In this document: positions 4,207-19,746 of the stretch, one piece after another
Layout of the letters: each line of letters begins with the position of its first letter
Position numbering within the stretch: the stretch's first letter is position 1
IMG/VR virus record: IMGVR_UViG_3300030331_000245
Span: 1,523-21,587 of that record
Length of the DNA: 20,065 nt
Strand: one strand, 5' to 3'
From: a virus
The notes under the pieces: model-generated
What the model was told of the DNA's origin: nothing
Database searches by the model: none
The model's input: the letters and a program-made list of their open reading frames with translations, nothing else
Translations under genes and position numbers: made by a program

Positions 4207-4550
4207 TATCCTAACACCTTATTTATAGAGCTTGGATTTATTTTATCATTTATTTTAGCTTCTACTTGATTTTTAAGTTCTAAAACATTTTCAGAACCCA
4301 TATTATTTTCTACCCAACCTTGTACAATTTCTGGTGTTAAATCAGACCAAGGTATAAAATTTGATAAATCAGATGTATCTAAATATACTCTACCTATAAC
4401 TGTTGCAAAATAATTATTATCATTATCATCTTGATTAGAGCTATCAATTCCTTTTAGTGTATAATTTACTTTATGAACTACATCTGACAATCCATCTTTA
4501 TTTGGATAAACTTCACAATCTGATACATCCCATTCAAAATTTATTGCCAT
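4206..4550 (-). CDS. Conserved phage protein next to tail fibre (114 aa)
   Basis: A 114-residue protein beginning MAINFEWDVSDCEVYPNKDG. It starts at ATG 4550, which overlaps the fibre stop (TAATG), and has AGGAGAAG about seven bases upstream. Residues 1-35 look like beta strands (FEWDV, HKVNYTLKG), the middle includes YFATVIGRVYLDTSDLSNF, and the C-terminal half is helical (TPEIVQGWVENNMG). Small proteins with this opening and a DTSDLS motif are familiar to me beside tail fibre genes in marine and cyanobacterial phages. I cannot confirm a family name. Being directly behind and coupled to the fibre, a role in fibre assembly or attachment is the best guess. Confidence 0.7.
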   Translation of the reverse strand: MAINFEWDVSDCEVYPNKDGLSDVVHKVNYTLKGIDSSNQDDNDNNYFATVIGRVYLDTSDLSNFIPWSDLTPEIVQGWVENNMGSENVLELKNQVEAKINDKINPSSINKVLG

Positions 4551-7500
4551 TATTCTTCTCCTTTAAGTTGCTGTATTTCATTTTGTAATACTTCTATTTG
4601 TTCTTGTTGTTCTTGTATAGCCTTCACTAAGTTTGGTACTAAGGGTGCATAATCTAATTCCCACTTAACTGTATCTGAACCAACTGTTACACCTCTTGCA
4701 TATTCTCCAATATCATCAAATGCTTGTTTATATGCTTGTGCAGAAAAACCACATCCATCAGTTACTCCTGTTTCTTCTCTTGTATATTTTATTGGCTCTA
4801 GTCTAGAAATTAAATCTAAACCAACTGCTGGTCCTGTAATCTCTTTGTATCTTTCATCAGACTCTACTGCTAATGAAATAGAATCTCCTGAAAGGTCATA
4901 ATCAAGTTTAGCTAAACTAGAGTTAGAATTTTTTCTATAAAATCTTATAAATCTATAGAAAGAAGCATCACCAGTATCGCTGTCTAAGGCTAAAACTGCA
5001 TCATCATTATTACCTGTTTTCTTAATGTTACAAGCCTCATTTTCAAATGTGCTACCACTACCAATACGAACTGATTCACTTGTATTAATTACACCATCTG
5101 ATTCAATAGCAAGTCTTAAATTTTGACCATTTGTGTAAAAGTCTATAGAGCCAGTATCTGTTCTAAATGAAAAGTCATTAGCACTACCACCAGACTTTAA
5201 AGCATTACCACCACCGATAAAACCATAGTTTGTGGAACCATCAGTAAGAGATATACCAGTATTTCCTGCTCCTGCTGTTAGAGCTAAAGTATTTCCATTC
5301 CATGTGGCATTAGCTTCTCCCTCAAGGGTATCTGCTGTGCCACTACCAGTTATTAATCTATTGTCTGCATTATTATTAATTGTTGTGCCACCACCAGAAA
5401 CTGAAAAGTCTAATGTTCCATCACCATCTTGATAAGTTACAGATATACCTGATTCTGTATTAGATGATACCATAGCACCTACAGTATCTTGAATAAACTC
5501 ATCAAGAGCTGTGCCATTAACAGTAATCGCATCGGCTTCTAAAGTACCATCAATATCTGCATCACCAGAAATATCTAATGAAGCACCATCTACTTCGCCT
5601 GTTACTGTAATACTATCTACATAAGCATCTTTAAAACGAACACCTGTTGTACCTAAATCGACATCGCTATCTGTCTGTGGTCCAAAAACACCATCTGATA
5701 CAAATACTTGTTCAGCATTAGCAGCATAAAAATGTATTTCATCTGCTGTTTCAAAGTCTATCTTTGTTTCATCATCTTCACCTATTTTAATATCTGTAGC
5801 TAGTAAAGAGGTAATACCTGTCTGAGCTGCATCTATTGTTAAGGTTAAATCAAATGGGTCTGCATCTGAACCATCACTTGTATCTGTAAAGTTTGTAGTA
5901 ATACCAGAACCAATAATTTTTAGTTCTTTACCATTGTCTATTGTAACTTCTGTGCCATCATCATCTTCCACTACAAAAGAAGTTGCAGCATCTGCTACTA
6001 AGTCTATAGTACCATCAGCATCTTGATAGGTAGCTGTAATGTTTGTTTCTGTGTTAGAACTAAACATAGCTCCAACTGTGTCTTGTATAACTTCTGTTAA
6101 GTCTATGTTTCCAGTACCATCAAAACTTACACCATGAATATTTCTAGCAGTTTCTAAAGCTGTAGCTGTTGCTGCATTACCTGTGGTATCTTGGTTAAGT
6201 GTACCAATTACAAAATCTAAAGTATTATCAGAATCATCATAACTAACTGTAATATTAGTTTCGGTATTTGAAGATACCATTGCTCCAACAGTATCAGAAA
6301 TAGTTTCTGCTAAAGTTACACCATCAATAGTTATAGCATCTGCTTCAAGAGTTCCATCAATATCAACATTACCTGAAACATCTAAACTAACAGCATCAAC
6401 TTCACCGGCTACAGTAAGCACCCCATCAGCTAATGTTATTAGGTCTGTATCATCAGTATGTCCAATGGTTGTGCCATTTATAATAACATTATCAACAGTT
6501 AAGGTTGTAAGTGTGCCTAGACTTGTAATATTGGATTGAGCTGCACCTGTTACTGTTGCTGCTGTTCCAGAAACATTACCTGTAACATTACCTGTCAATG
6601 GACCGGCAAAAGCATCGGCTGTAACTGTGCCATCAAAAAATGCATCTTTAAACTCTAAGCTAGATGTACCTAAGTCAATATCATTATTAGTTACTGGAAC
6701 TAAAGCACCATCTTGTAATTTTATCTGGTCTGCACCAGCTGCTCTAAATATAATATTATTATCTGTGGCAAAATCTATATCGTTATCTGCATCTCTACCA
6801 ATAACTAAACTTGTATTTAGTAAAGATGATATTGTTGTTTGTGATGAGCCAAGTACAAAATCAAGTGTATTATCACCATCTTCAAAAGTAACAGAAATAC
6901 CTGTTTCAGTATTAGAGCTTACCATGCCTCCGACAGCATCAGTAATAACTTCATTTAAAGTTGCACCATTTACTGTAATAGCATCTGCCTCTAATGTGCC
7001 ATCTATATCAGCATCTCCAGATATATCTAAAGAACCAGCATCTAGTTCTCCTGTTAATGTTACATTTCTAAAACTTGCAATATCTTTATTGCTATCTACT
7101 ACTACTGCTTTAGAAGCTGCAACAGTTCCTGCTGTAACTCCATCAATAGTTTCTAGTTCTGCTTCATTAATATCTGCTGAACCAATAACAAAACTTGTAC
7201 CTGTGATAGTTGTACCTGTAATAGCTGCTGCACTTGAGCCACCTATTATTGCTCCATCAACAGTACCACCATTTATGTCTGCAGTATCAGCCACTAGGCT
7301 ATCAATATTGGCAGTACCATCAATGAATAAATCTTTAAATTCTAAACTAGATGTTCCTAAATCAATGTCGTTGTCTGTTATAGGAACTATGGCTCCATCT
7401 TGTATTCTTAATTGTTGTACTGAAGAAGATGATACCTCTACATAAAATTCTATATGATTGTTTGATGTATCTATTAATACTTTATTGTTTGGGGAAGTTT

Positions 7501-7672
7501 CTCCAGCATCTCCTATAAGACCTATGACTGGTCCTTCTGCTGTTGTACCATCGTGTTTGTGTCCTGTTGAATTATTAAATGCAGCTAATAATTGATTAAA
7601 CTCATTATTAAATAATGCTGCTGTGATGGTATCACCATCGTTGATTGTACTTTGTCGTGTATAACTTGCCAT
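4550..7672 (-). CDS. Long tail fibre with C-terminal S74-type self-cleaving chaperone
   Basis: A 1040-residue host-attachment protein. AGGAGA precedes ATG 7672. Residues 1-50 (ending HKHDGTTAEGPVIG) look like the virion-binding head typical of marine phage fibres. Residues 86-760 are beta-rich and repetitive: DxDLGTSSLEFKD-type units at about 102, 331 and 670; DGTLEADAITVNG-type units at 224, 439 and 708; SSNTETGISV-type units at about 252, 467, 538 and 736. The C-terminal ~103 residues carry SDERYK at 938-943, GFSAQ near 975, and a final coiled coil rich in Gln/Glu. This fits the peptidase S74 intramolecular chaperone, which trimerises the fibre and cuts itself between the Ser and Asp of the SD motif (here Ser938-Asp939). 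The mature shaft would be about 938 residues. Confidence 0.87.
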   Translation of the reverse strand: MASYTRQSTINDGDTITAALFNNEFNQLLAAFNNSTGHKHDGTTAEGPVIGLIGDAGETSPNNKVLIDTSNNHIEFYVEVSSSSVQQLRIQDGAIVPITDNDIDLGTSSLEFKDLFIDGTANIDSLVADTADINGGTVDGAIIGGSSAAAITGTTITGTSFVIGSADINEAELETIDGVTAGTVAASKAVVVDSNKDIASFRNVTLTGELDAGSLDISGDADIDGTLEADAITVNGATLNEVITDAVGGMVSSNTETGISVTFEDGDNTLDFVLGSSQTTISSLLNTSLVIGRDADNDIDFATDNNIIFRAAGADQIKLQDGALVPVTNNDIDLGTSSLEFKDAFFDGTVTADAFAGPLTGNVTGNVSGTAATVTGAAQSNITSLGTLTTLTVDNVIINGTTIGHTDDTDLITLADGVLTVAGEVDAVSLDVSGNVDIDGTLEADAITIDGVTLAETISDTVGAMVSSNTETNITVSYDDSDNTLDFVIGTLNQDTTGNAATATALETARNIHGVSFDGTGNIDLTEVIQDTVGAMFSSNTETNITATYQDADGTIDLVADAATSFVVEDDDGTEVTIDNGKELKIIGSGITTNFTDTSDGSDADPFDLTLTIDAAQTGITSLLATDIKIGEDDETKIDFETADEIHFYAANAEQVFVSDGVFGPQTDSDVDLGTTGVRFKDAYVDSITVTGEVDGASLDISGDADIDGTLEADAITVNGTALDEFIQDTVGAMVSSNTESGISVTYQDGDGTLDFSVSGGGTTINNNADNRLITGSGTADTLEGEANATWNGNTLALTAGAGNTGISLTDGSTNYGFIGGGNALKSGGSANDFSFRTDTGSIDFYTNGQNLRLAIESDGVINTSESVRIGSGSTFENEACNIKKTGNNDDAVLALDSDTGDASFYRFIRFYRKNSNSSLAKLDYDLSGDSISLAVESDERYKEITGPAVGLDLISRLEPIKYTREETGVTDGCGFSAQAYKQAFDDIGEYARGVTVGSDTVKWELDYAPLVPNLVKAIQEQQEQIEVLQNEIQQLKGEE

Positions 7673-9282: not shown

Positions 9283-10050
9283 TTAAAAATAAGTTCTATC
9301 GTCTGTCATAAACTTAGGAGCAGGATTTATTAAATTTGACTTCATATGTTTCATTGATTTTTTAAAATCCTCTAAAGCAAATGCTGCTTGTTGAGGAGAT
9401 TCTTTAAATTGCCAAATGTAATATCTTGCTCTTGAAGTTATAACATTACTATATTGTTCTGGTAATACTATAGTGTCATCATGTGCTGATAAAGCTGTGG
9501 GTTTTGTAAAGGCATAAAAATGCACATTATAAACTTTATCAGGTATAGGACTTAATCCAAATTTTCTATTATCTGGAGATTTAATTACAAATCTAGGTTC
9601 TCCAAATTGTTGATTACCAGCATCATCTTCGTTTTCGCTATCTCTGTAGTATCTTCGCCACTCATTAAGATTTACAAATCGTAAACCTTTTGATACATGA
9701 GGAGCTGATTCTCCAGAAACATTTATTGTTGTTAAGTAAAAATCATCCCAATCTACTGAAGCAAAGTCTGTTGTTAAACTTGAACTACTAGCATTTAATA
9801 AATACCATCTAGTTCCTGCTACAGTAGCAACTGTAGTATTACCATAAAAAGGGTCTGTACTACCACTAACTCCAGCTGAAAAAAAAGGTAACTGTGGTTC
9901 TTGATTAGCAATATCAAATATAGCTTTATTTACTGCATCTTTAACAAATGCTTGAAATCCTACTGCTCCTGCAAAACTAGAAGAAGTTAAAGGAACTTCA
10001 TTGAGTTCTCTTAGTAATTCATTTGTTAAATCAAGATATGTTGTTGCCAT
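9283..10050 (-). CDS. Head-tail adaptor-like protein (tail tubular A type)
   Basis: A 255-residue protein from ATG 10050, which overlaps the preceding stop as TAATG. The N-terminus (TYLDLTNELLRELNEVPL) and the following helix (FQAFVKDAVNKAIFDIANQE) match the helical opening of podovirus adaptor proteins that dock under the portal. The middle is beta-rich with a GTRWYLL segment, and the C-terminal part (VLPEQYSNVITSRARYYIWQ) ends in helices, also typical. It lies between the capsid block and the nozzle-like gene, which is the expected place. The assignment rests on this pattern and order; the protein could instead be called a generic tail protein. Confidence 0.65.
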   Translation of the reverse strand: MATTYLDLTNELLRELNEVPLTSSSFAGAVGFQAFVKDAVNKAIFDIANQEPQLPFFSAGVSGSTDPFYGNTTVATVAGTRWYLLNASSSSLTTDFASVDWDDFYLTTINVSGESAPHVSKGLRFVNLNEWRRYYRDSENEDDAGNQQFGEPRFVIKSPDNRKFGLSPIPDKVYNVHFYAFTKPTALSAHDDTIVLPEQYSNVITSRARYYIWQFKESPQQAAFALEDFKKSMKHMKSNLINPAPKFMTDDRTYF

Positions 10051-10172
10051 TATTTTTTCTTTTTCTTATTAGCTTTTAAAGATTTTTCTAAAATTTTAGC
10101 TTGTCCAGCATGACTTTTAGAAGCTTTCTTCAAGGCAGCTATTAATTTTTTAGTTTGTGCTTCACTAAGCAT
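10050..10172 (-). CDS. Very small Lys-rich protein (40 aa)
   Basis: A short frame from ATG 10172-10170 to TAA 10052-10050. It lies exactly between its neighbours: the start is one base after the upstream stop, and its stop overlaps the adaptor start as TAATG. The product begins MLSEAQTKKLIAALKKASK, is one amphipathic helix by pattern, and ends with a run of Lys. Exact tiling, and a composition like the gene just upstream, support it as real. It has no recognisable domain. Charge suggests binding to DNA or to an acidic protein surface, perhaps in the virion, but this is inference. Confidence 0.65.
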   Translation of the reverse strand: MLSEAQTKKLIAALKKASKSHAGQAKILEKSLKANKKKKK

Positions 10173-10173
10173 T

Positions 10174-10371
10174 TTATCTACCTACTTTTTTCTGAGCTGC
10201 TTTATGTGCCTGTGTAAAAGTTTTACCTCTTTTCATCATATTAGCCATCATTTTCATATGTTTGCCTGTATGATGAACAGCATGTTTTTTCATAGTGTCT
10301 TGTTGTCTTTTTGTTAAAGAAGACAAATCAGCACCTTTTACAGTAACTTTCTTTTTAGGTTTCATTGGCAT
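10174..10371 (-). CDS. Small basic Met/His/Lys-rich protein (65 aa)
   Basis: I place the start at ATG 10371-10369, two bases past the stop of the upstream gene, because GGGGAAG lies just in front. An ATG-less upstream extension in the same frame would run into the preceding gene. The 65-residue product begins MPMKPKKKV and carries LTKRQQDTMKKHAVHH, then KHMKMMANMM and GKTFTQAHKAAQKKVG. This helical, Lys/His/Met-rich arrangement (an L-x-x-RQ helix followed by a TFTQAHKAA helix) recurs in small proteins of marine phages as I remember them, always near structural genes. The function is unknown to me; nucleic acid binding is plausible from charge. Confidence 0.7.
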   Translation of the reverse strand: MPMKPKKKVTVKGADLSSLTKRQQDTMKKHAVHHTGKHMKMMANMMKRGKTFTQAHKAAQKKVGR

Positions 10372-10372
10372 T

Positions 10373-10612
10373 TTACTTCCCCTTATTTCTTTCTTGGTAT
10401 GCAAATTTCATAGTATTCATACCAGCTTTTTCTTGACAATGTTGAACAAATTCATCAACAGAAGAATAATCTTTCATTCCTTTCATGTCTTTGCTAACTT
10501 TTTTACCTTCTTGATATGACATTCTACTACCACCCATCATAGGTTTTCTTCCATAGCTCATAGGTTTTCTTTTTTTCTTTATTGATTCTTCCATCATTTT
10601 TTTGTAATCCAT
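10373..10612 (-). CDS. Small basic Lys/Met-rich protein (79 aa)
   Basis: A 79-residue protein from ATG 10612 with AAGGAATT upstream. It is the first gene after the intrinsic terminator. The N-terminal half is basic with Lys, Met, Gly and Arg (MDYKKMMEESIKKKRKPMSY), the middle has GGSRMSYQEG, and the C-terminal part (SVDEFVQHCQEKAG, then a basic end) looks helical. Two short GRKPMMGG / KRKPMSYG segments resemble each other. There is one Cys and no membrane segment. I recognise no family. It begins a run of three basic small proteins between capsid and tail genes. Confidence 0.7.
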   Translation of the reverse strand: MDYKKMMEESIKKKRKPMSYGRKPMMGGSRMSYQEGKKVSKDMKGMKDYSSVDEFVQHCQEKAGMNTMKFAYQERNKGK

Positions 10613-10661: not shown

Positions 10662-11645
10662 CTAGTCTATTGCATAAAATGCTGAAACTAATGCTTCAGG
10701 TCTTAGGACTTTTGCTCCATAAACATGCAATCCTCTAACAATATCACCAAATGAATCTGGGTCTCTTAGGACCTCAGTTGAGATAATTGTTTGAGCAGTT
10801 GCAACTGAAGAAATATGTCCAGCTAACACTTTACCACTTGCTGTAGAAGCAGCAGCAATATTGTTAGATTTGTACATATTAAATCCTCTCAACATTCCAC
10901 TAGAAACTAAACCATTTCTAATAGAACCTTGACCTGCGTTAAAGTCAACACTTAATAACTTAGAACCAGATTGACCAAGCTGTTCATAAAAACTTGGTGG
11001 TGCAACGAACCATCTACCTTCTTCAGGTACATTTTGCTCGTCAAGCAATCTAGCCATGAAAGCCATAACATCTAATGGGTCTGTTCCTGTTCCGTCAGAA
11101 CCTGTAAGGTCTACAGAGTTAGAACCACCTTGATGTTGAGCCATAGTTTGTGTAGCTGCTGCTGCATCTGCACCTATAATATGGTCTGGGCTTGAAGATG
11201 AAACACCACTAAACATTGTAGCTAATACTGCTGAGTCAAAAGAGTCTCTTAGAGCATAAGCTGCTGATGATGTTGCCACCTCTTTAAAGTTAACATGTGA
11301 CATTTTGCTTTCAATATCATCTACGATGAATTTAAAAGCTTTTGCTGAATCAACAACCAAAGATGTTTCTTGGTCTGTTAATTTTGTTGCAGTAGTATCA
11401 CTTCCTCTGGTGTAATCTGATACACTAATTTCAGGTTCTTTGATAATTAGTACAGAGTCACCAAAGTTTGAGATTTCTCCGGAGTAATCGGTATTTGTAA
11501 TAGCTTCTACCACACTTGCTTTTCTGAAAAAGTTTAATACTTTAGCAGAATAAATTTGAGGTAAAAAGAAACTATTAGCTTGACCACTCACAGAGTTTCC
11601 GAAGTTTGCATTTGTATCTGGACTAGGTTCAAAATACTGTGCCAT
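10662..11645 (-). CDS. Major capsid protein
   Basis: A 327-residue protein starting at ATG 11645. It has one of the strongest ribosome binding sites here (AAAGGAGGGACG), in keeping with the most abundant virion protein. The N-terminus contains SFFLPQIYSAKVLNFFRKASVVEAITNTDY followed by IKEPEISVSDYTRG (quoted in essence, residues about 26-80), the pattern of P22-coat-like HK97-fold capsid proteins in marine podoviruses: an N-arm, then a GDSV-type strand, then a helix with FIVDDIESK. The C-terminal part (GDIVRGLHVYGAKVLRPEAL) fits the closing beta-strand of the A domain. No prohead protease gene is nearby, so maturation probably relies on the scaffold alone. An intrinsic terminator follows the gene, which may stabilise this part of the transcript. 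Confidence 0.9.
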   Translation of the reverse strand: MAQYFEPSPDTNANFGNSVSGQANSFFLPQIYSAKVLNFFRKASVVEAITNTDYSGEISNFGDSVLIIKEPEISVSDYTRGSDTTATKLTDQETSLVVDSAKAFKFIVDDIESKMSHVNFKEVATSSAAYALRDSFDSAVLATMFSGVSSSSPDHIIGADAAAATQTMAQHQGGSNSVDLTGSDGTGTDPLDVMAFMARLLDEQNVPEEGRWFVAPPSFYEQLGQSGSKLLSVDFNAGQGSIRNGLVSSGMLRGFNMYKSNNIAAASTASGKVLAGHISSVATAQTIISTEVLRDPDSFGDIVRGLHVYGAKVLRPEALVSAFYAID

Positions 11646-11682: not shown

Positions 11683-12540
11683 TTAATTAATTCTTCCTTC
11701 TTCCCAAGCTTTGTCGATTTCTTTTTCAAGTCTATCAAATTCAGCTGGAGATAAAGAAAGAATCTCCTTTTGTGTCCAAATCTTTGCTTCTTTTGGCTCG
11801 ACATTGGTTGTCTTAGTAGACACCATATCGGCAGCCGAAGACTTAGATTCAGAGCCTCTTGATAGCTGTTTCTGTTTGCTAGTTATTCCCACATCTGATT
11901 TAAATAAATCTATAGCTCGACTTGCTGCTTCTGGGTCATTAGAATTTTTATAAATCCAATTCTGTATAGACTCAGGTTGAGATTTTGCCCAATCGTGAAA
12001 ATCATCACTGTTTCTAATATCATCAAAATCAGGATGCTTTGCTTTGAGTTCTTTCTCAGCATCTAATCTAACAAGTTGCTGTTCTCTTTCTTGTAAAAGT
12101 TTTACCTTTTCTTCAAGTTGTTTTGCTCTGCTTTCGCTTTGCATAGTAGCAACTGTTTCTACCACATCATAAACATCAGGATATTTTTGTTTAAACTCAG
12201 CAAGTTCTTCTTCAGATTTAGGTGGGGTATATTTTACCTGACCTTCTTTTGCTTGTTCTATAAGTTCAAGCTCTTTCTGTTTAAACTCATTAAGTTTACT
12301 ATCATAATGTTTTTTCAAATCATCATATCTTTTTTTGTAGTCGGGTCGCTTATAGTTACCTTTTTGTTCTACCTGAACTTCTGATTCCTGTTCAACAGAC
12401 TCTTCAGTATTTTCTACTACAGTATTACTTTCAGGGTCTGGAAAGTACACATTTTCAGATGAAACAAATTGTTTATCTTCTACATCGTGCCAACTCTTTT
12501 TTAAGTTATATGGGTTAGCTTTTTCTTCTTTTTTAGCCAT
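11683..12540 (-). CDS. Capsid scaffolding protein
   Basis: A 285-residue protein from ATG 12540 with AGGAGA seven or so bases upstream. It is highly charged and helical: an acidic low-complexity region at about 35-65 rich in Glu/Val/Gln, a basic stretch (YKRPDYKKRYDDLKKHY), a long Lys/Glu/Gln coiled coil to about residue 165, then the conserved-looking KAKHPDFDDIRNSDDFHDWAK, and a charged helical C-terminus. Position just before the major capsid gene, charge, and coiled-coil content are classic for podovirus scaffolds, which guide procapsid assembly and leave before DNA packaging. The HPDFDDIRNSDDF segment is familiar to me from marine phage scaffold genes. Confidence 0.83.
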   Translation of the reverse strand: MAKKEEKANPYNLKKSWHDVEDKQFVSSENVYFPDPESNTVVENTEESVEQESEVQVEQKGNYKRPDYKKRYDDLKKHYDSKLNEFKQKELELIEQAKEGQVKYTPPKSEEELAEFKQKYPDVYDVVETVATMQSESRAKQLEEKVKLLQEREQQLVRLDAEKELKAKHPDFDDIRNSDDFHDWAKSQPESIQNWIYKNSNDPEAASRAIDLFKSDVGITSKQKQLSRGSESKSSAADMVSTKTTNVEPKEAKIWTQKEILSLSPAEFDRLEKEIDKAWEEGRIN

Positions 12541-12630: not shown

Positions 12631-13410
12631 TTAACTACGGATATTTGGAGGTCCTAACATACTTTCTGTTATGAGGTTTTCTTCCTCTTCTCTTGCTAAC
12701 AGTGGATTCACTGTAGAAACAGTTTCTGGTCGATTAATATTAAAAGTCATTTCAACTTCTTTTTTTCTCATATCAGACATGTTATCATCATCCATTTCTG
12801 AATGAGGACCACCATGTACCATAGCTTTTCTATCTTCCCCAGCATCATAAGCAGCTTCAGCATCCTTCATCATTTTGAGAAGGTTGTCTGAACCAATCTG
12901 CTCTACTGATTTTGCTGTAAAGACAAATTCTCCATCCGATAACCTTGCAGGTATCGAATCAGAGGTCCCAGTGCCGGGTCCTTCGACTTCTCCGGCTCCA
13001 GTAAACTCCGAAGCTTTTTCCACTACTTTGTCGAATATCATACTCAACTCAGGATTAGCTTCTAGTTGTTCCATTAACATAGACTCTTCTTTGTCGGATA
13101 GAGCTTCATCTATCACAAAGTCTACAAATTGTTGTTCCATTTGTTCATCAGGTATCATCTTATCTTCTTCAGACATCATCTTATCTTCTTCACCATCAGC
13201 ATACATAGCTCTCATTTTATCTTCTTCTTCTTTCATCAACTTTACCATGTCACCATCTGCTTTAGGTTCTCTCATTTCTTTTTTATCTTTAGCAGCTTCT
13301 TTCATAGGTTCTTCTTTATCACCATCACCATCTAAATCTAAAAAGTCTGGTTTTGAAACTTCATCACCATCTTTATATGAATATCTATCTTTATCTTTTT
13401 TTAGTATCAT
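12631..13410 (-). CDS. Conserved acidic virion-associated hypothetical protein
   Basis: A 259-residue protein whose ATG (13410) overlaps the stop of the embedded small gene as ATGA, with AGAAAGGAAG upstream. The first 90 residues are acidic and rich in Lys, Glu, Asp and Met, with a DLDGDGDKEE loop (25-34) like an EF-hand or dockerin calcium loop. Residues 90-140 are helical. Residues 144-162 hold GPGTGTSDSIPARLSDGEF, a motif I know from many phage structural proteins, including the ends of some tape measure proteins, and from proteins between portal and scaffold in marine podoviruses. The remainder is acidic. The motif and position support a head-assembly or virion role, but the exact function is unknown. 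Confidence 0.75.
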   Translation of the reverse strand: MILKKDKDRYSYKDGDEVSKPDFLDLDGDGDKEEPMKEAAKDKKEMREPKADGDMVKLMKEEEDKMRAMYADGEEDKMMSEEDKMIPDEQMEQQFVDFVIDEALSDKEESMLMEQLEANPELSMIFDKVVEKASEFTGAGEVEGPGTGTSDSIPARLSDGEFVFTAKSVEQIGSDNLLKMMKDAEAAYDAGEDRKAMVHGGPHSEMDDDNMSDMRKKEVEMTFNINRPETVSTVNPLLAREEEENLITESMLGPPNIRS

Positions 13411-15660: not shown

Positions 15661-17256
15661 TTAATATCCAAAAGTCGAATCTGCTGGATTAAAATACGAT
15701 TGTTCTTTTAATCTTTTTAATTCATCGTAAGTAGACTGCACTCTTGGTCTGCTCATTATCATGTATCGTAATGCATCATAAGCATGGTCTGAGGCATGGG
15801 TATCTACATCTTCAGAATTATTTTTAGACAATGGAATACTTTGCAATTCTCTAATTAAATTCTTACAAGTATTAAAAATTTGTAATCTAGGTCTGCCACT
15901 AGGTTGCACTTTTAAATACTCATGTATTTGTATTTTTCCTTGTACTCTATTTTTATCTGCTCTTCTGAGTTTATGACCCATTTTTTGCAGAGTTTCTCCA
16001 ACAGTAGGACCGGTTGTTCCTGTTCTTGCCCAAGCTGCAGTATCAAGTACCCCTGAAACTGAAACTGGGTCTTCTAGTTCCATACTAGATATTATACTAC
16101 CTAATTCTTCTCCTGTCAAGCCTTTTTGATATAATTCTCGATAAATTATCAAAGTTCCATCATTTATATCAACTGCACCCCATAAACAACAGCTCTCTGA
16201 AGCATAACCATAGTCTATTCCTTTTACTCTTTGCCAATGCACAGGTATCTCAAAAGGAGCCACTACATGATTTTCTACTTCAAATTCTGCAAATGCTGCA
16301 CCTTCTGCAATATCCCAATTACCTTCAAGTAATTGTCTTCTTTGTGTTGGAGGCAAAGATTGTAACATTTTTTCATATACACCATCTTCAGCAAGATATG
16401 GGTTATCAACTAATTTAGCAGGAATAAATTTTCTTGATAGACCATCTGCTCCCACAAAAGATGTATTATTTTCAGAAGGGTCTACATATCTTTTTTTAAC
16501 CCAACTAGCACCTACACCTCCGGGATTAGCTGTGCATCTTAAATATGTTTTAATACTTTTATCTGTTGTTCTTAAACGAGATGCTAAATAATTCCAACCG
16601 AACTCTGTAGGTAAATGTGTTATCTCATCAAAACCTATCCAAGAATATGCTTGTCCTTGGTATCTATAAACATCTGCATCTTTTTCTAAGAAACCAAATT
16701 CAATTTTAGCTCCTGATGGAAAGTTCCAAACTTTCTCAACTTCTCTAAATTTAGCACCGGGAAATGCTTGTGGATATAATTCTCTAGACTTATCAATAAG
16801 TTCTCTAAGTTCAGGCATAGACCTTCTAAGAATTAAAGCTCTATGTGCTTTCTTATGGCAGTATCTTAGAGGGTCTACTAACATAGCATAGGATTTACCA
16901 CCACCAGCAGCACCACCATATAAAACATCTTTTTCATCTGCAGCTAAAAAATCAGTTTGTGGTCCTTCGTTGGGTTGAAACAATACTGTATCTGAACTTA
17001 TGGCATCAGCTACTGATTGTGGCAAATCTTTTAATTTATCTTCTGATATAACTTGATTATCTGAAGTATTGTCAAGTTTAGACAAAACTTCTTTAGATTT
17101 TTTTAAGGAATTTTTTTTGTTGTTTAAAGTTGTTTCCAACTTTTTAATTTGAGCTTCTTTGGTTTTTAAAGTTCGTTTAACTTTAGTTTTTTGAGCTTTT
17201 GCTTTTTTTACATCACTAAGAACTTCATCTAGTGTTGGTCTGCCTCTCTTTGCCAT
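15661..17256 (-). CDS. terL: Terminase large subunit
   Basis: A 531-residue DNA-packaging motor. Walker A GGAAGGGKS is at 114-122, Walker B IGFDE at 207-211, and the coupling motif TANPGG at 242-247. The C-terminal RNase H-like nuclease shows its acidic residues in GIDYG (Asp348), VLDTAAW (Asp405) and DHAYDALRY (Asp490/Asp494). The protein cuts concatemeric DNA and drives it into the procapsid by ATP hydrolysis. Unusually, about 95 residues precede the ATPase: an AT-hook-like KRGRPTL (residues 3-9), then a Lys-rich coiled coil (16-62). The start overlaps the preceding gene by 32 bases; no other Met occurs before the Walker A motif, so the extension is probably translated. Confidence 0.95.
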   Translation of the reverse strand: MAKRGRPTLDEVLSDVKKAKAQKTKVKRTLKTKEAQIKKLETTLNNKKNSLKKSKEVLSKLDNTSDNQVISEDKLKDLPQSVADAISSDTVLFQPNEGPQTDFLAADEKDVLYGGAAGGGKSYAMLVDPLRYCHKKAHRALILRRSMPELRELIDKSRELYPQAFPGAKFREVEKVWNFPSGAKIEFGFLEKDADVYRYQGQAYSWIGFDEITHLPTEFGWNYLASRLRTTDKSIKTYLRCTANPGGVGASWVKKRYVDPSENNTSFVGADGLSRKFIPAKLVDNPYLAEDGVYEKMLQSLPPTQRRQLLEGNWDIAEGAAFAEFEVENHVVAPFEIPVHWQRVKGIDYGYASESCCLWGAVDINDGTLIIYRELYQKGLTGEELGSIISSMELEDPVSVSGVLDTAAWARTGTTGPTVGETLQKMGHKLRRADKNRVQGKIQIHEYLKVQPSGRPRLQIFNTCKNLIRELQSIPLSKNNSEDVDTHASDHAYDALRYMIMSRPRVQSTYDELKRLKEQSYFNPADSTFGY

Positions 17257-17494
17257 ATTTTTTATCCATGTGTTTTTTAAGTCCGGCTTTTGATAATGTT
17301 CGACCTACTTTGTAGTCTAGCCAATCTGATGCTGTTTGTAAACTTATCTCTTGTTTGTTTAACATGTCTTCAATAACTTCTAATGCTTCTAGTTGTTCTG
17401 GTACAGGTTTTAAATGTCCAACTACATTTGACTCCTCATAACCAAAAGGTATAGTTGATGAGGTTCTTCTTATATAACCATCAGGCAATAACAT
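17225..17494 (-). CDS. Small protein resembling a serine-recombinase 'recombinase' domain
   Basis: An 89-residue protein whose ATG (17494) overlaps the previous stop as TAATG, with AGGA upstream. Residues 15-75 follow the pattern of the middle DNA-binding domain of large serine recombinases: PFGYE, then a Pro-Glu-Gln segment (PVPEQLEALEVIEDML), then a helix-turn-helix-like ISLQTASDWLDYKVGRTLSKAGLKKHM. No catalytic resolvase domain is present, so it cannot recombine DNA alone. It overlaps terL by 32 bases. A DNA-binding role, perhaps helping terminase choose or hold DNA, fits the position. The domain match is by eye and moderate in strength. Confidence 0.65.
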   Translation of the reverse strand: MLLPDGYIRRTSSTIPFGYEESNVVGHLKPVPEQLEALEVIEDMLNKQEISLQTASDWLDYKVGRTLSKAGLKKHMDKKYGKERQTNTR

Positions 17495-17757
17495 TATTTT
17501 GTCCTACGATACTTTCTTACTTTTTTAGCTATTTTTTTAGGTTGTTTAGAAAACTGTTTACCTTTTTTAGTATCTTTTCTTTTTTTACGACTTGTTGCAG
17601 CATATTCAGCTGCTGTTAAAGACTTAATAGCTTTTTCAGGTAAATATCTTTCTCCAGTTTTAGCAGAAGGTTTGCCTGACTTAGTTCGCCATTTTTGATT
17701 ACCCCATTCTACTAAACTCTTTTGAGACTTTTTTAAATTTCTAGTTTTTCTTGCCAT
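17494..17757 (-). CDS. Small basic protein, DUF5872-like
   Basis: An 87-residue, strongly basic protein. It contains VEWGNQKWRTKSGKPS, then TGERYLPEKAIKSL, TAAEYAATSRKKRKDTKKGKQ and a basic end (QPKKIAKKVRKYR). The series KWRTKSGKP / GERYLP / EYAAT-KK / KQ-KQPKKIAKK matches my memory of DUF5872, a family of unknown function found in large viruses, phages and some bacteria. The length is right for one domain. The start at ATG 17757 is one base after the upstream stop, with a weak GGAA, so coupled translation is likely. Nucleic-acid binding is likely from the charge, but no function is established. Confidence 0.75.
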   Translation of the reverse strand: MARKTRNLKKSQKSLVEWGNQKWRTKSGKPSAKTGERYLPEKAIKSLTAAEYAATSRKKRKDTKKGKQFSKQPKKIAKKVRKYRRTK

Positions 17758-17758
17758 A

Positions 17759-17950
17759 TTAAATTTTCCAAAAAAATGAAGACATTACAAACAACCATGA
17801 TACAACTTGCATAATAGTTGCTAACAAAATTACCTTAAACTGTATATCTGCTTGAGGTTTAAGCTCTTGTTCAAACCACTCTTGACACTCTTCAGGAGTT
17901 GCATCTCTTGTAACTTGTAAGTGTAATTCAAGTTGTTGTTCATACTTCAC
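17759..17950 (-). CDS. Small C-terminally anchored membrane protein (63 aa)
   Basis: The frame starts at GTG 17950, overlapping the preceding stop as GTGA. The first 38 residues are acidic and helical (ATPEECQEWFEQELKPQ), and residues 40-60 form a clear membrane helix (VILLATIMQVVSWLFVMSSFF) ending WKI. It is the only acidic, membrane-type product in a cluster of basic ones. No Shine-Dalgarno is evident, so coupling is likely. A shorter frame from an ATG at 17943 exists, but its product looks random. A membrane role such as holin, pinholin or superinfection control is possible; the family is unknown to me. Confidence 0.6.
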   Translation of the reverse strand: MKYEQQLELHLQVTRDATPEECQEWFEQELKPQADIQFKVILLATIMQVVSWLFVMSSFFWKI

Positions 17951-18231
17951 TTTGTTTTTTTATGTTTTTTTCTAATAGCTTCTTTGCCTTTCTTAGCTAT
18001 TCTTGCTTGTTCGTTTTTACCTGCAACCTTGGCTCGTTGTTCTAAGACAGTAAGTATTTGTATTTTACGAGCATAAGGCTTTCTTATTCTCTTAACTTTA
18101 GCAACAGTTGCTCTAGCATCTGCTGGGGTTGCAAACTTTATACTAACTGTATCTTTTGGATTTTCGTCAGTATATAATCTACGACCACTACCTTTTGGTT
18201 TTTTTCCTGTTCCTTTTTTTGGGTCTGGCAT
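17947..18231 (-). CDS. Small basic conserved phage protein (94 aa)
   Basis: A 94-residue protein from ATG 18231 with AAAGGACA upstream. It starts with a basic Gly/Pro-rich arm (MPDPKKGTGKKPKGSGRR), then LYTDENPKDTVSIKF, a short strand-helix part, and a helical basic C-terminus (ILTVLEQRAKVAGKNEQARI, then a run of Lys and Arg). The opening DPKKGTGKKPKGSGRRLYTDENPKDTVS is a pattern I recall from several marine phages, always as a stand-alone small gene near terminase. Function is not known. Its first 44 bases overlap the 3' end of a 44-residue basic gene in another frame. Confidence 0.72.
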   Translation of the reverse strand: MPDPKKGTGKKPKGSGRRLYTDENPKDTVSIKFATPADARATVAKVKRIRKPYARKIQILTVLEQRAKVAGKNEQARIAKKGKEAIRKKHKKTK

Positions 18232-18322
18232 ATGGTGCTGTCCTTTTTCCTGCTTTGTTATACTTTCCTGATTTCTTTTTTGCTATCGCAATAGCTGCTC
18301 TTTGAGCTGCACTACGAGACAT
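18188..18322 (-). CDS. Very small Lys/Arg-rich protein (44 aa)
   Basis: This frame starts at ATG 18322-18320, overlapping the preceding stop as TAATG, with GGTGGAGG about ten bases upstream. It ends at TAG 18190-18188 inside the next gene. The product is 44 residues with 18 Lys/Arg: MSRSAAQRAAIAIAKKKSG, then a basic tail. The SAAQRAAIAIAKKKSGKY segment is one I remember from small phage proteins, so the frame is very likely real. It fills a gap between two genes of similar character. Function unknown; nucleic-acid contact is likely from charge. Confidence 0.72.
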   Translation of the reverse strand: MSRSAAQRAAIAIAKKKSGKYNKAGKRTAPYARPKKRNRKKTKR

Positions 18323-18516
18323 TATTTATAGCCTCCACCTTTAGCTTTATATTCTTTGGCTAAAAGCTGGGCTTTTCGAGCTGACCACTGACCGGGTTTA
18401 CCACCTTTAGAACCGGCTTTAATCCTCTGGAAAAGCCTCTTACGCATAGTCGGCTTGGTATAATTACCAGCTTCATTAACACGAGACTTACTTTTTTTCT
18501 TTGCTTTTCTGGGCAT
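18322..18516 (-). CDS. Small basic protein with KSRVNEAGNYTKP motif (64 aa)
   Basis: A 64-residue protein with 21 Lys/Arg, from ATG 18516, with TTTGGAG seven bases upstream. The motif series SRVNEAGNYTKPTMRKRLF, IKAGSKGGKPGQWSARKAQ and LAKEYKAKGGGYK is well known to me from many marine phages and large viruses, either alone or beside DUF5872-type proteins. The conserved Asn, Gly, Trp and Tyr positions suggest a folded small domain rather than a random basic tail. The function is unknown; binding to DNA or RNA during packaging is reasonable speculation. The 5' end overlaps the upstream gene by 29 bases. Confidence 0.78.
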   Translation of the reverse strand: MPRKAKKKSKSRVNEAGNYTKPTMRKRLFQRIKAGSKGGKPGQWSARKAQLLAKEYKAKGGGYK

Positions 18517-18652
18517 TGTTTACTCCAAATATTTTATCAAAATTATTTCTATATTCTTTTGTGTATACTCCGGGTCTAGCTTTAGAACCTTTACCAGCTA
18601 TAGTACCTGTTTTAAATTTTATTGGGTGTTCTTTACTATTTATTTGAGGCAT
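18488..18652 (-). CDS. Small basic hypothetical protein (54 aa)
   Basis: I choose ATG 18652-18650, which overlaps the stop of the 42-residue gene upstream as TAATG. A TTG seven codons earlier in the same frame lies inside that gene and is unlikely. The 54-residue product reads MPQINSKEHPIKFKTGT, then a Gly/Lys segment, then PGVYTKEYRNNFDKIFG and a basic end. The central YTKEYRNNFDKIFG looks like a helix with aromatic faces. I know no family. It shares 29 bases with the next gene in another frame. Confidence 0.62.
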   Translation of the reverse strand: MPQINSKEHPIKFKTGTIAGKGSKARPGVYTKEYRNNFDKIFGVNNAQKSKEKK

Positions 18653-18780
18653 TATTTTCTTTTTAGTGTCCAAGCCTCGTTTCTAAACTTAGTTTTCTTT
18701 TTATCTGGAACATAGCGACCTTTTGAATCTCTATTTCTAACCCAGATAAAACCCAACCATTGTAATATTTTATCTAACAT
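18652..18780 (-). CDS. Very small hypothetical protein (42 aa)
   Basis: The frame runs from ATG 18780-18778, five bases after the upstream stop, to TAA 18654-18652, which overlaps the next start as TAATG. It exactly fills the space between two genes. The product begins MLDKILQWLGFIWV, an amphipathic or membrane-contacting helix, followed by a basic part (RNRDSKGRYVPD, then Lys-rich) ending NEAWTLKRK. The RDSKGRYVPD and NEAWT pieces look like a conserved module rather than random translation, though I cannot name it. The Shine-Dalgarno is weak. Confidence 0.65.
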   Translation of the reverse strand: MLDKILQWLGFIWVRNRDSKGRYVPDKKKTKFRNEAWTLKRK

Positions 18781-18785
18781 AGTAT

Positions 18786-19100
18786 TTACCATTTAACTTT
18801 ATCTGCCCACCATGCTGCTGACATCTTGCCTTTGGCAATATTCTTAGCATGTCGAGCTTTAAAAGATTTTCTTTTTGCTTTCATACGAGCCGACTCACCT
18901 GCTTTAGGCTTACCAGCTGTACCTTCTAAAGTACCAACCTTTTTACCTTGTTGACCAAATCTTATAAGTTTTATCTTATGACCTTCTTGAGCTAAAACCA
19001 TATGCGATTTAGTAGGATGTTTAGGAGTTCGTTTAGCTTTATTAACTCCTTTCAATCCATATTTTTTTAGCATTGCTGCTTTTCTATCGGCATGTGGCAT
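18786..19100 (-). CDS. Small basic conserved phage protein (104 aa)
   Basis: A 104-residue basic protein whose ATG (19100) overlaps the previous stop as TAATG. It has KAAMLKKYGLKGVNKAKRTP, then the core THMV-like segment KSHMVLAQEGHKIKLIRFGQQG, and a C-terminus SFKARHAKNIAKGKMSAAWW followed by ADKVKW. This core and the SFKARHxxNIAKGKMSAxxWADKVKW ending are familiar from many marine and cyanobacterial phages, so this is a conserved family even though its function is, to my knowledge, unknown. The conserved His, Lys and Trp residues suggest nucleic-acid binding. It is the second gene after TerS. Confidence 0.78.
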   Translation of the reverse strand: MPHADRKAAMLKKYGLKGVNKAKRTPKHPTKSHMVLAQEGHKIKLIRFGQQGKKVGTLEGTAGKPKAGESARMKAKRKSFKARHAKNIAKGKMSAAWWADKVKW

Positions 19101-19282
19101 TAGTGTATAACTTTTTTAGGTTCCTCTTCTTCTACTCTTAATTCGTGTAATTCACCAACCAAAATTAATTCATACTCATAAGCAATCTTTTCAGCTTCTG
19201 CTAACGATTCTGCTCTTATATATGGACCAATAAACTTTTTATTGTCTAGTGGGTCTGTTATTTCAGTTAGGAATATCCTCAT
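19100..19282 (-). CDS. Small conserved phage protein (60 aa)
   Basis: A 60-residue acidic protein starting at ATG 19282, overlapping the TerS 3' end by 20 bases, with AGGA eight bases upstream. The pattern is strand-helix-strand: MRIFLTEITDPL, then GPYIRAESLAEAEKIAYEYE, then LILVGELHEL, ending in an acidic stretch. Small proteins of this kind (a short strand, a helix with AEKIA, then a VGEL strand) are common in marine phages. The function is unknown to me. It may be a small single-domain accessory protein; it is not basic, unlike its neighbours. Confidence 0.72.
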   Translation of the reverse strand: MRIFLTEITDPLDNKKFIGPYIRAESLAEAEKIAYEYELILVGELHELRVEEEEPKKVIH

Positions 19283-19688
19283 TATTTAAATCCTCATAAT
19301 CAACATTTATTACTTCTTGTTTTTCAGGCAGAATAAAAATACCCCCTGACGAAGTATGATTAACATTAAGTCGTTCTGTTTTAGTAACACCGACTCTATC
19401 TAATATATTTTGAGCTGCTTGTAGTTTATTATTAGCTTGTGGCACCGGTCTATTCGATTCCATAACTTCAATTAACTTAAAAGCTGCCCTAGGTGCAGAC
19501 CTTGCAAGTACCTCCGAGGCTAAATCTATCACTTCATCTTTAAGACTTTTTAATACTTGTTGATGATTGCCTGAGTAACCTGCTAATTCGGCTGCTAGTT
19601 TAGGGTCGCCTTGTGTTTCCACAAGACAATCTAAGAACTTTTGTTGTTTCTCAGTAAGAGTTTTCTTACGAGGTTCTAAATAACTCAT
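19263..19688 (-). CDS. Terminase small subunit-like protein
   Basis: A 141-residue protein that recognises phage DNA for packaging. The helix-turn-helix region is in LTEKQQKFLDCLVETQG and KLAAELAGYS (residues about 10-40), the pattern of the Terminase_2/homeodomain-like family. The middle is helical, and the end has LDRVGVTKTERLNV, typical of TerS. I start at ATG 19688-19686 because a perfect sigma70 promoter predicts transcription from that A, so the mRNA would be leaderless. Two other in-frame ATGs (19703 and 19694) and a TTG at 19736 lie inside the promoter. A start further upstream is possible only on transcripts from the promoter near 20000. Confidence 0.78.
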   Translation of the reverse strand: MSYLEPRKKTLTEKQQKFLDCLVETQGDPKLAAELAGYSGNHQQVLKSLKDEVIDLASEVLARSAPRAAFKLIEVMESNRPVPQANNKLQAAQNILDRVGVTKTERLNVNHTSSGGIFILPEKQEVINVDYEDLNNEDIPN

Positions 19689-19694
19689 AAACAT

Positions 19695-19723
19695 ATTATA
19701 CATTTTATTTACCAGTTTGTCAA
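19695..19723 (-). promoter_or_regulatory. Consensus sigma70-type promoter for late genes
   Basis: The minus strand has TTGACA (19723-19718), 17 bases, then TATAAT (19700-19695): a perfect consensus with ideal spacing. With the -10 element at -12 to -7, +1 falls on 19688, the A of the TerS ATG. It would drive the whole structural operon with host RNA polymerase. Confidence 0.88.
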
Positions 19724-19746
19724 TAGTATTAAGCAAATTGTGTAAA

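Follow-up and report, generated by a model that had tools for sequence, protein, structure and literature searches.

The 20,065-nucleotide window analysed here, positions 1,523 to 21,587 of the 21.6 kb IMG/VR virus record IMGVR_UViG_3300030331_000245, contains a tight group of small genes between those for the terminase small subunit (TerS) and large subunit (TerL). Three of them, b104, b64 and b87, encode conserved basic domains, which are inherited together in relatives of this phage, are linked and fused to one another in other phages, and are connected through b104-like domains with capsid proteases. We give nearly even chances to the explanation that b104, b64 and b87, together with b94, b76 and b40, are small folded head-assembly modules, which enter the procapsid and stay near the packaged DNA like the internal proteins of phage T4. 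The families are already catalogued without a function, and their union in a single set of linked and fused members that is connected with capsid proteases appears to be new.

Conservation and linkage of the basic genes

It turned out that TerS (19263..19736, minus strand) and TerL (15661..17256, minus strand) are separated by 10 small open reading frames (ORFs) of 60, 104, 46, 61 (54 from ATG), 64, 44, 94, 63, 87 and 89 amino acids (aa). The counts in the initial annotation are right except for the size of this group, which was given as nine. Seven members (44-104 aa, isoelectric point 10.2-12.0, net charge +9 to +27) are basic, the number that had been stated, and the lysine/arginine contents quoted for b64 (21 of 64 residues) and b44 (18 of 44) are right. 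The core genes are b104 (18786..19100, minus strand; 104 aa, net +24), b64 (18322..18516, minus strand; 64 aa, net +19) and b87 (17494..17757, minus strand; 87 aa, net +27), and b94 (17947..18231, minus strand; 94 aa, net +22), also basic, shows linkage to them in other phages. The capsid gene is followed by three further basic ORFs, again as annotated: b79, b76 (10174..10371, minus strand; 65 aa from ATG or 76 aa from a TTG at 10404, net +16 to +19) and b40 (10050..10172, minus strand; 40 aa, net +11). All the basic ORFs share the strand of TerS and TerL, the gaps inside the cluster range from -44 to +1 base, and the layout is that of one translationally coupled operon.

Such a concentration of charge is not expected by chance: when 10 length-matched random segments were taken from the large proteins of this phage, which are acidic overall, a mean of 0.18 segments were equally basic and the maximum was 4 in 20,000 draws, against the 7 observed. 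The small basic genes with enough relatives are real and under purifying selection. Their median ratios of nonsynonymous to synonymous substitution rates (dN/dS) against relatives are 0.18 for b104, 0.12 for b64, 0.22 for b87, 0.07 for both b94 and b46, and 0.03 for b44 (two relatives only), with 0.13 for TerL and 0.12 for the major capsid protein as references; b76 was compared with three relatives and b40 with one, and b79 has no measurable value.

The TerL of the window shares 69% identity with its counterpart in Pelagibacter phage HTVC115P and about 49% with those of Puniceispirillum phage HMO-2011 and Roseobacter phage CRP-1. The source is therefore a marine podovirus akin to the HMO-2011 type, a group described as dominant and widespread in the ocean (PMC9038755). 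We collected 80 IMG/VR relatives by TerL alone, 64 of which contain both TerS and TerL. Each of b104, b64 and b87 is located inside the TerS-TerL interval in 57 of these 64, which bears out the co-occurrence with the same TerL that the initial annotation had put forward for checking. The gene content of the interval varies among relatives, and b44, b46, b79 and s63 are confined to the closer ones. HTVC115P is an exception, in which TerS and TerL are separated by just two small genes, and b64 and b87 lie at a distance of about 25 kb, where a few genes separate them from the preceding homologue of the 805-aa protein in the window. Near these copies, among virion-type genes, lies a gene annotated as toxin-activating lysine-acyltransferase (L085:4294-4743).

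For the wider picture we ran scans seeded with b104, b87, b94 and b76, whose counts are those among the matches listed and not population frequencies (the best-80 lists favour close relatives, and many loci are fragments). The gene order is fixed: in all 159 same-strand pairs spaced by no more than 3 kb, b64 comes upstream of b87, and the two are fused in 5 more cases. Further fusions join b87 with b104 (29 ORFs) and b40 with b64 (3 ORFs). In the b87 scan, b64 occurs within 1.5 kb at 41 of the 43 loci with room for it; in the b104 scan, b87 does so at 26 of 58 loci; and neither scan gave an opposite-strand neighbour among set members in the matches listed. TerL is within 1.5 kb at only 10 of 58 (b104 scan) and 6 of 43 (b87 scan) loci, and therefore the members of the set are bound more closely to one another than to the terminase. 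Directly upstream of TerL, b104-like or b64 genes are also found in HTVC111P and Methylophilales phage MEP401. The coupling to packaging genes claimed at first thus applies within the TerL clade, outside which the set moves to other sites, and a role as terminase-specific factors is weakened by this departure.

The scans with b94 and b76, which were unselected for b104, b64 and b87, gave a consistent result. Other set members lie within 1.5 kb at 24 of 41 loci for b94 (28 near versus 0 far) and at 23 of 43 loci for b76 (14 near versus 2 far). Therefore b76 and b40 belong with the TerS-TerL genes, in line with the earlier grouping of the capsid-side and terminase-side genes; in other phages both cluster or fuse with the same genes.

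Besides, several composite proteins were observed. In L020 (3523-5108) and L026, both b64 and the fused b87+b104 contain additional domains of about 120-160 aa, located at KGG-type linkers, which suggests that these linkers are modular insertion points. A small domain with the pattern MPLTxKG...KKGxQVFxATANxG is fused ahead of b64 in HMO-2011 gp63 and its relatives (L083:6258-6614, L199:6270-6629, L205:1464-1940, L185:4245-4703).

The connection with head assembly comes from more distant proteins. A divergent b104 query matched the C-terminal part of Vibrio phage ICP1 gp125, an annotated capsid protease (PHROG 9979) whose gene lies between portal and scaffold. This protein contains Pfam Peptidase_S78_2 at residues 37-160 and a PHROG 7595 match at 184-261, and the order is reversed in Aeromonas phage phiA019 (phiA019_0104), where the b104-like domain comes before an XkdF-type protease. 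ICP1 gp122-gp126 are predicted capsid morphogenesis genes with late transcription (PMC7567579). The window b104 shares the domain with this type of capsid maturation protease and consists of the domain only, with no protease part.

A divergent-domain scan showed that in large phages the b104-like domain is usually located at the C-terminus of a longer protein (73 of the best 80 ORFs exceed 125 aa), with a median charge of +0.24 per residue in the domain versus -0.10 in the upstream part. Motifs of both halves of DUF5872, a family treated below, were also found in three of these proteins. A capsid-targeting (CTS-like) N-terminus resembling those of T4 internal proteins was found in 6 of 71 large-phage b104-like ORFs versus 3 of 653 other ORFs at the same loci, and a looser pattern in 13 of the 71 versus 12 of the 653, statistics which are optimistic because the patterns were written after viewing the proteins.

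Two other observations concern proteins of these kinds. PHROG 1530 is labelled DNA methyltransferase, and the proteins matched here (L248:3482-4315, L254:3824-4711) are XkdF-type capsid proteases with a b104-like domain, so the label looks wrong. In a T4-like Methylophilales phage, one protein (L255:2345-4294) combines a cytidylyltransferase, a DUF5824 domain and a b104-like C-terminus.

Domain families and predicted folds

The three core proteins match family profiles over their full length: b104 with PHROG 7595 (E 3.2e-35), b64 with PHROG 17747 (E 7.1e-37) and b87 with PHROG 14910 (E 6.9e-37), none of which has an assigned function. Alignments show domains that contain invariant residues and are strongly conserved between phages whose hosts are unrelated. 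From window and IMG/VR sequences only, AlphaFold2 predicted confident small folds for b104 and for a b64+b87 fusion, with mean confidence (pLDDT) of 85.8 and 86.7 respectively.

As for Pfam, b64 resembles the first half and b87 the second half of DUF5872 (PF19197; cut-off 27.5 bits), to which the window proteins themselves give no match. A natural b64+b87 fusion (L128) aligns along practically the whole profile, positions 2-109 of 116, with 19.7 bits and E 0.0014, below the cut-off. The window differs in that the two halves are separate genes with others between them, neither of which reaches the cut-off. Scores above it were obtained only for two large-phage proteins, L330 (53.9) and L268 (31.0), both with a b104-like end. 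In cyanophage S-CRES1 the sole DUF5872 place is the fused gp97, which adjoins the b104 gene gp98.

The window b104 likewise gives no match to DUF5754 (PF19058; cut-off 27.4 bits), which is Tlr6F (PMC12220804). This protein of unknown function is reported to be conserved in almost every polinton-like virus, in several virophages and numerous giant viruses, and in some phages (PMC4642659). Relatives of b104 give weak matches of 10.9-13.3 bits, all below the cut-off, with the best E of 0.033 among A3 members. We ran Foldseek with the b104 model on a viral library, and the matches include ICP1 ORF125 and an XkdF protein (probability 1.00), as well as Tunisvirus V9SE36 and F2Y0K8 (probability 0.99, E 0.013), putative members of DUF5754. 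Homology of b104 and Tlr6F is likely because of this predicted-fold match and the weak profile matches. Both are small standalone proteins; the phage form differs in that it is commonly linked with DUF5872-like domains or a capsid protease, or fused to them. Among solved structures, none resembles b104 by sequence or fold, and none resembles b87 by sequence.

Two candidate annotations were set aside. PHROG 220, "minor head protein and DNA pilot", matches b104 weakly and only at about positions 535-608 of 1338, and is a hint only; membership of b94 in DUF6321 was not confirmed.

A possible role inside the phage head

According to our explanation, the basic modules would be made late alongside the terminase and capsid genes, and would enter the procapsid by binding an acidic scaffold or core, or the incoming DNA. 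They would remain beside the packaged DNA in the mature head, where they could lower local charge repulsion, and may leave with the genome at ejection. We favour this role because the genes form an operon coupled to TerS and TerL, are linked in 57 of 64 relatives, evolve under purifying selection, and keep same-strand linkage and fusions across unrelated phages. It is also favoured by the fusions of b104-like domains with XkdF-type proteases in both orders, the predicted late capsid genes of ICP1, the basic C-termini, the CTS-like starts and the parallel with T4.

The T4 internal proteins are basic and number about 300 copies each; they bind DNA when the salt is low, and their N-termini direct them into the prohead core (PMC9026906). 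Like T4 IPI, IPII and IPIII, the window proteins are small, basic and encoded by a tailed phage, and their place with the head DNA is a proposal. They differ in lacking a capsid-targeting N-terminus, and no sequence relationship was found; moreover, the T4 proteins are proven in virions (PMC9026906). To give a scale, the combined charge of the ten basic proteins is about +165, and about 67 copies of each would be required to neutralise 10% of the phosphates in a 55-kb genome (a length taken from relatives). This number is within the T4 copy numbers, yet is no evidence of neutralisation.

The idea of a "phage chromatin" in the initial annotation survives in part. A co-inherited basic core set exists and is likely involved in the head, judging from the protease fusions and CTS-like N-termini. 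The core proteins are not charge-only condensers: eukaryotic-virus core proteins and protamine-like condensers have similar size and charge, and b104, b64 and b87 differ from them by conserved cores and predicted folds, so that a protamine-like nature was rejected by the invariant residues and confident folds.

Several results weigh against the head role. None of the basic proteins in the window starts with the T4 capsid-targeting pattern, and the CTS-like signal, with its optimistic statistics, is limited to a minority of the distant proteins. Within the window no capsid protease was recognised, the Pfam links to DUF5754 and DUF5872 are below the curated cut-offs for the window proteins, and a literature search on the virion proteomics of HMO-2011, S-EIV1 and S-CRES1 relatives yielded nothing about these genes. 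Some b104 relatives adjoin genes for lysozyme, peptidase M15A, cytidylyltransferase or ribonucleotide reductase, and not head genes.

These last neighbours, like the basic charge itself, would also suit late cytoplasmic nucleic-acid binders with no head role, acting in RNA binding, genome handling before packaging, or takeover. We regard such binders as improbable, for the fusions with capsid proteases and the CTS-like N-termini are at odds with them. Ranked slightly ahead, and still unlikely, are packaging accessories that never enter the virion, namely small DNA-binding factors that aid TerS and TerL in loading or processing concatemers. The TerS-TerL location in most relatives and the genes just upstream of TerL in HTVC111P and MEP401 agree with this, but the rarity of TerL near the set elsewhere (10 of 58 and 6 of 43 loci) does not, and the capsid-protease fusions are left unexplained.

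Proteins that enter the head could also be effectors in the manner of T4 IPI and Alt, packaged with the DNA and acting in the next host against defence or in takeover. The internal proteins of T4 leave the head by ejection, and one of them, IPI, inhibits a restriction enzyme (PMC9026906). The variable gene content around the set would fit, but, unlike typical arms-race genes, the core domains show strong conservation among phages with unrelated hosts, and we place effectors below the cytoplasmic binders in probability. The least probable account, which we consider very unlikely, is that the small basic genes have no common function and were gathered by chance in a permissive stretch of a late operon. 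It would explain why b44, b46, b79 and s63 are confined to closer relatives and why TerS-TerL content varies, but not the invariable order of b64 and b87, the fusions among b40, b64, b87 and b104, or the near-versus-far clustering in independent scans.

If the head role is extended to other viruses, Tlr6F/DUF5754 and DUF5872 might constitute one head-interior DNA-handling toolkit of tailed phages, polinton-like viruses, virophages and giant viruses, whose parts, in tailed phages, would be encoded singly, fused to one another, or incorporated in capsid proteases as the head-targeting part. We hold this wider view to be possible and rather doubtful. If it is true, phages would offer the first hint at the function of a protein that occurs in a large part of the large DNA viruses. 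The phage contexts (terminase cluster, protease fusions, CTS-like N-termini and DUF5872-like fusions) lead to a specific, testable proposal for Tlr6F, that is, procapsid entry and DNA contact. Should this proposal hold, the packaged DNA of many marine phages would be surrounded by a protein component which current annotation overlooks.

Other genes of the window

All predicted genes are on the minus strand, in the order TerS, the 10 small genes, TerL, portal, an acidic 259-aa protein, a scaffold candidate, capsid, three small basic genes and tail genes. Among the remaining small genes, b46 (18652..18792, minus strand; 46 aa, net +9) is mildly basic and found in closer relatives only, and b44 (18188..18322, minus strand; 44 aa, net +18) is basic and restricted to close relatives. 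For s61 (18488..18652, minus strand; 54 aa from ATG or 61 aa from a TTG at 18673, net +9 to +11), the basic charge is not conserved, because its relatives are often nearly neutral; its median dN/dS of 0.43 is looser. Three genes are not basic, namely s60 (19100..19282, minus strand; 60 aa, net -6), s63 (17759..17950, minus strand; 63 aa, net -4), which has a hydrophobic C-terminus, and s89 (17225..17494, minus strand; 89 aa), which is near neutral and overlaps the start of TerL. In all 64 relatives having TerS and TerL, s89 precedes TerL, more constantly than the basic genes, and it is possibly the true packaging partner. On the capsid side, b79 (10373..10612, minus strand; 79 aa, net +10) has few relatives, and the relatives of b40 are fused to b64.

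The major capsid protein gene (10662..11645, minus strand) is preceded by the scaffold candidate (11683..12540, minus strand; net -14), which belongs to PHROG 13678 of unknown function and is a possible acidic partner of the basic proteins. Between portal and scaffold candidate, the 259-aa protein (12631-13410, minus strand; net -35) has a C-terminal stretch that matches many tape-measure PHROGs despite the podovirus context, possibly a shared virion-protein motif or a sign of a core or scaffold partner. Farther along, a 1040-aa protein (4550-7672, minus strand) has a net charge of -132, and its C-terminus, by reading only, resembles a self-cleaving tail-spike chaperone.

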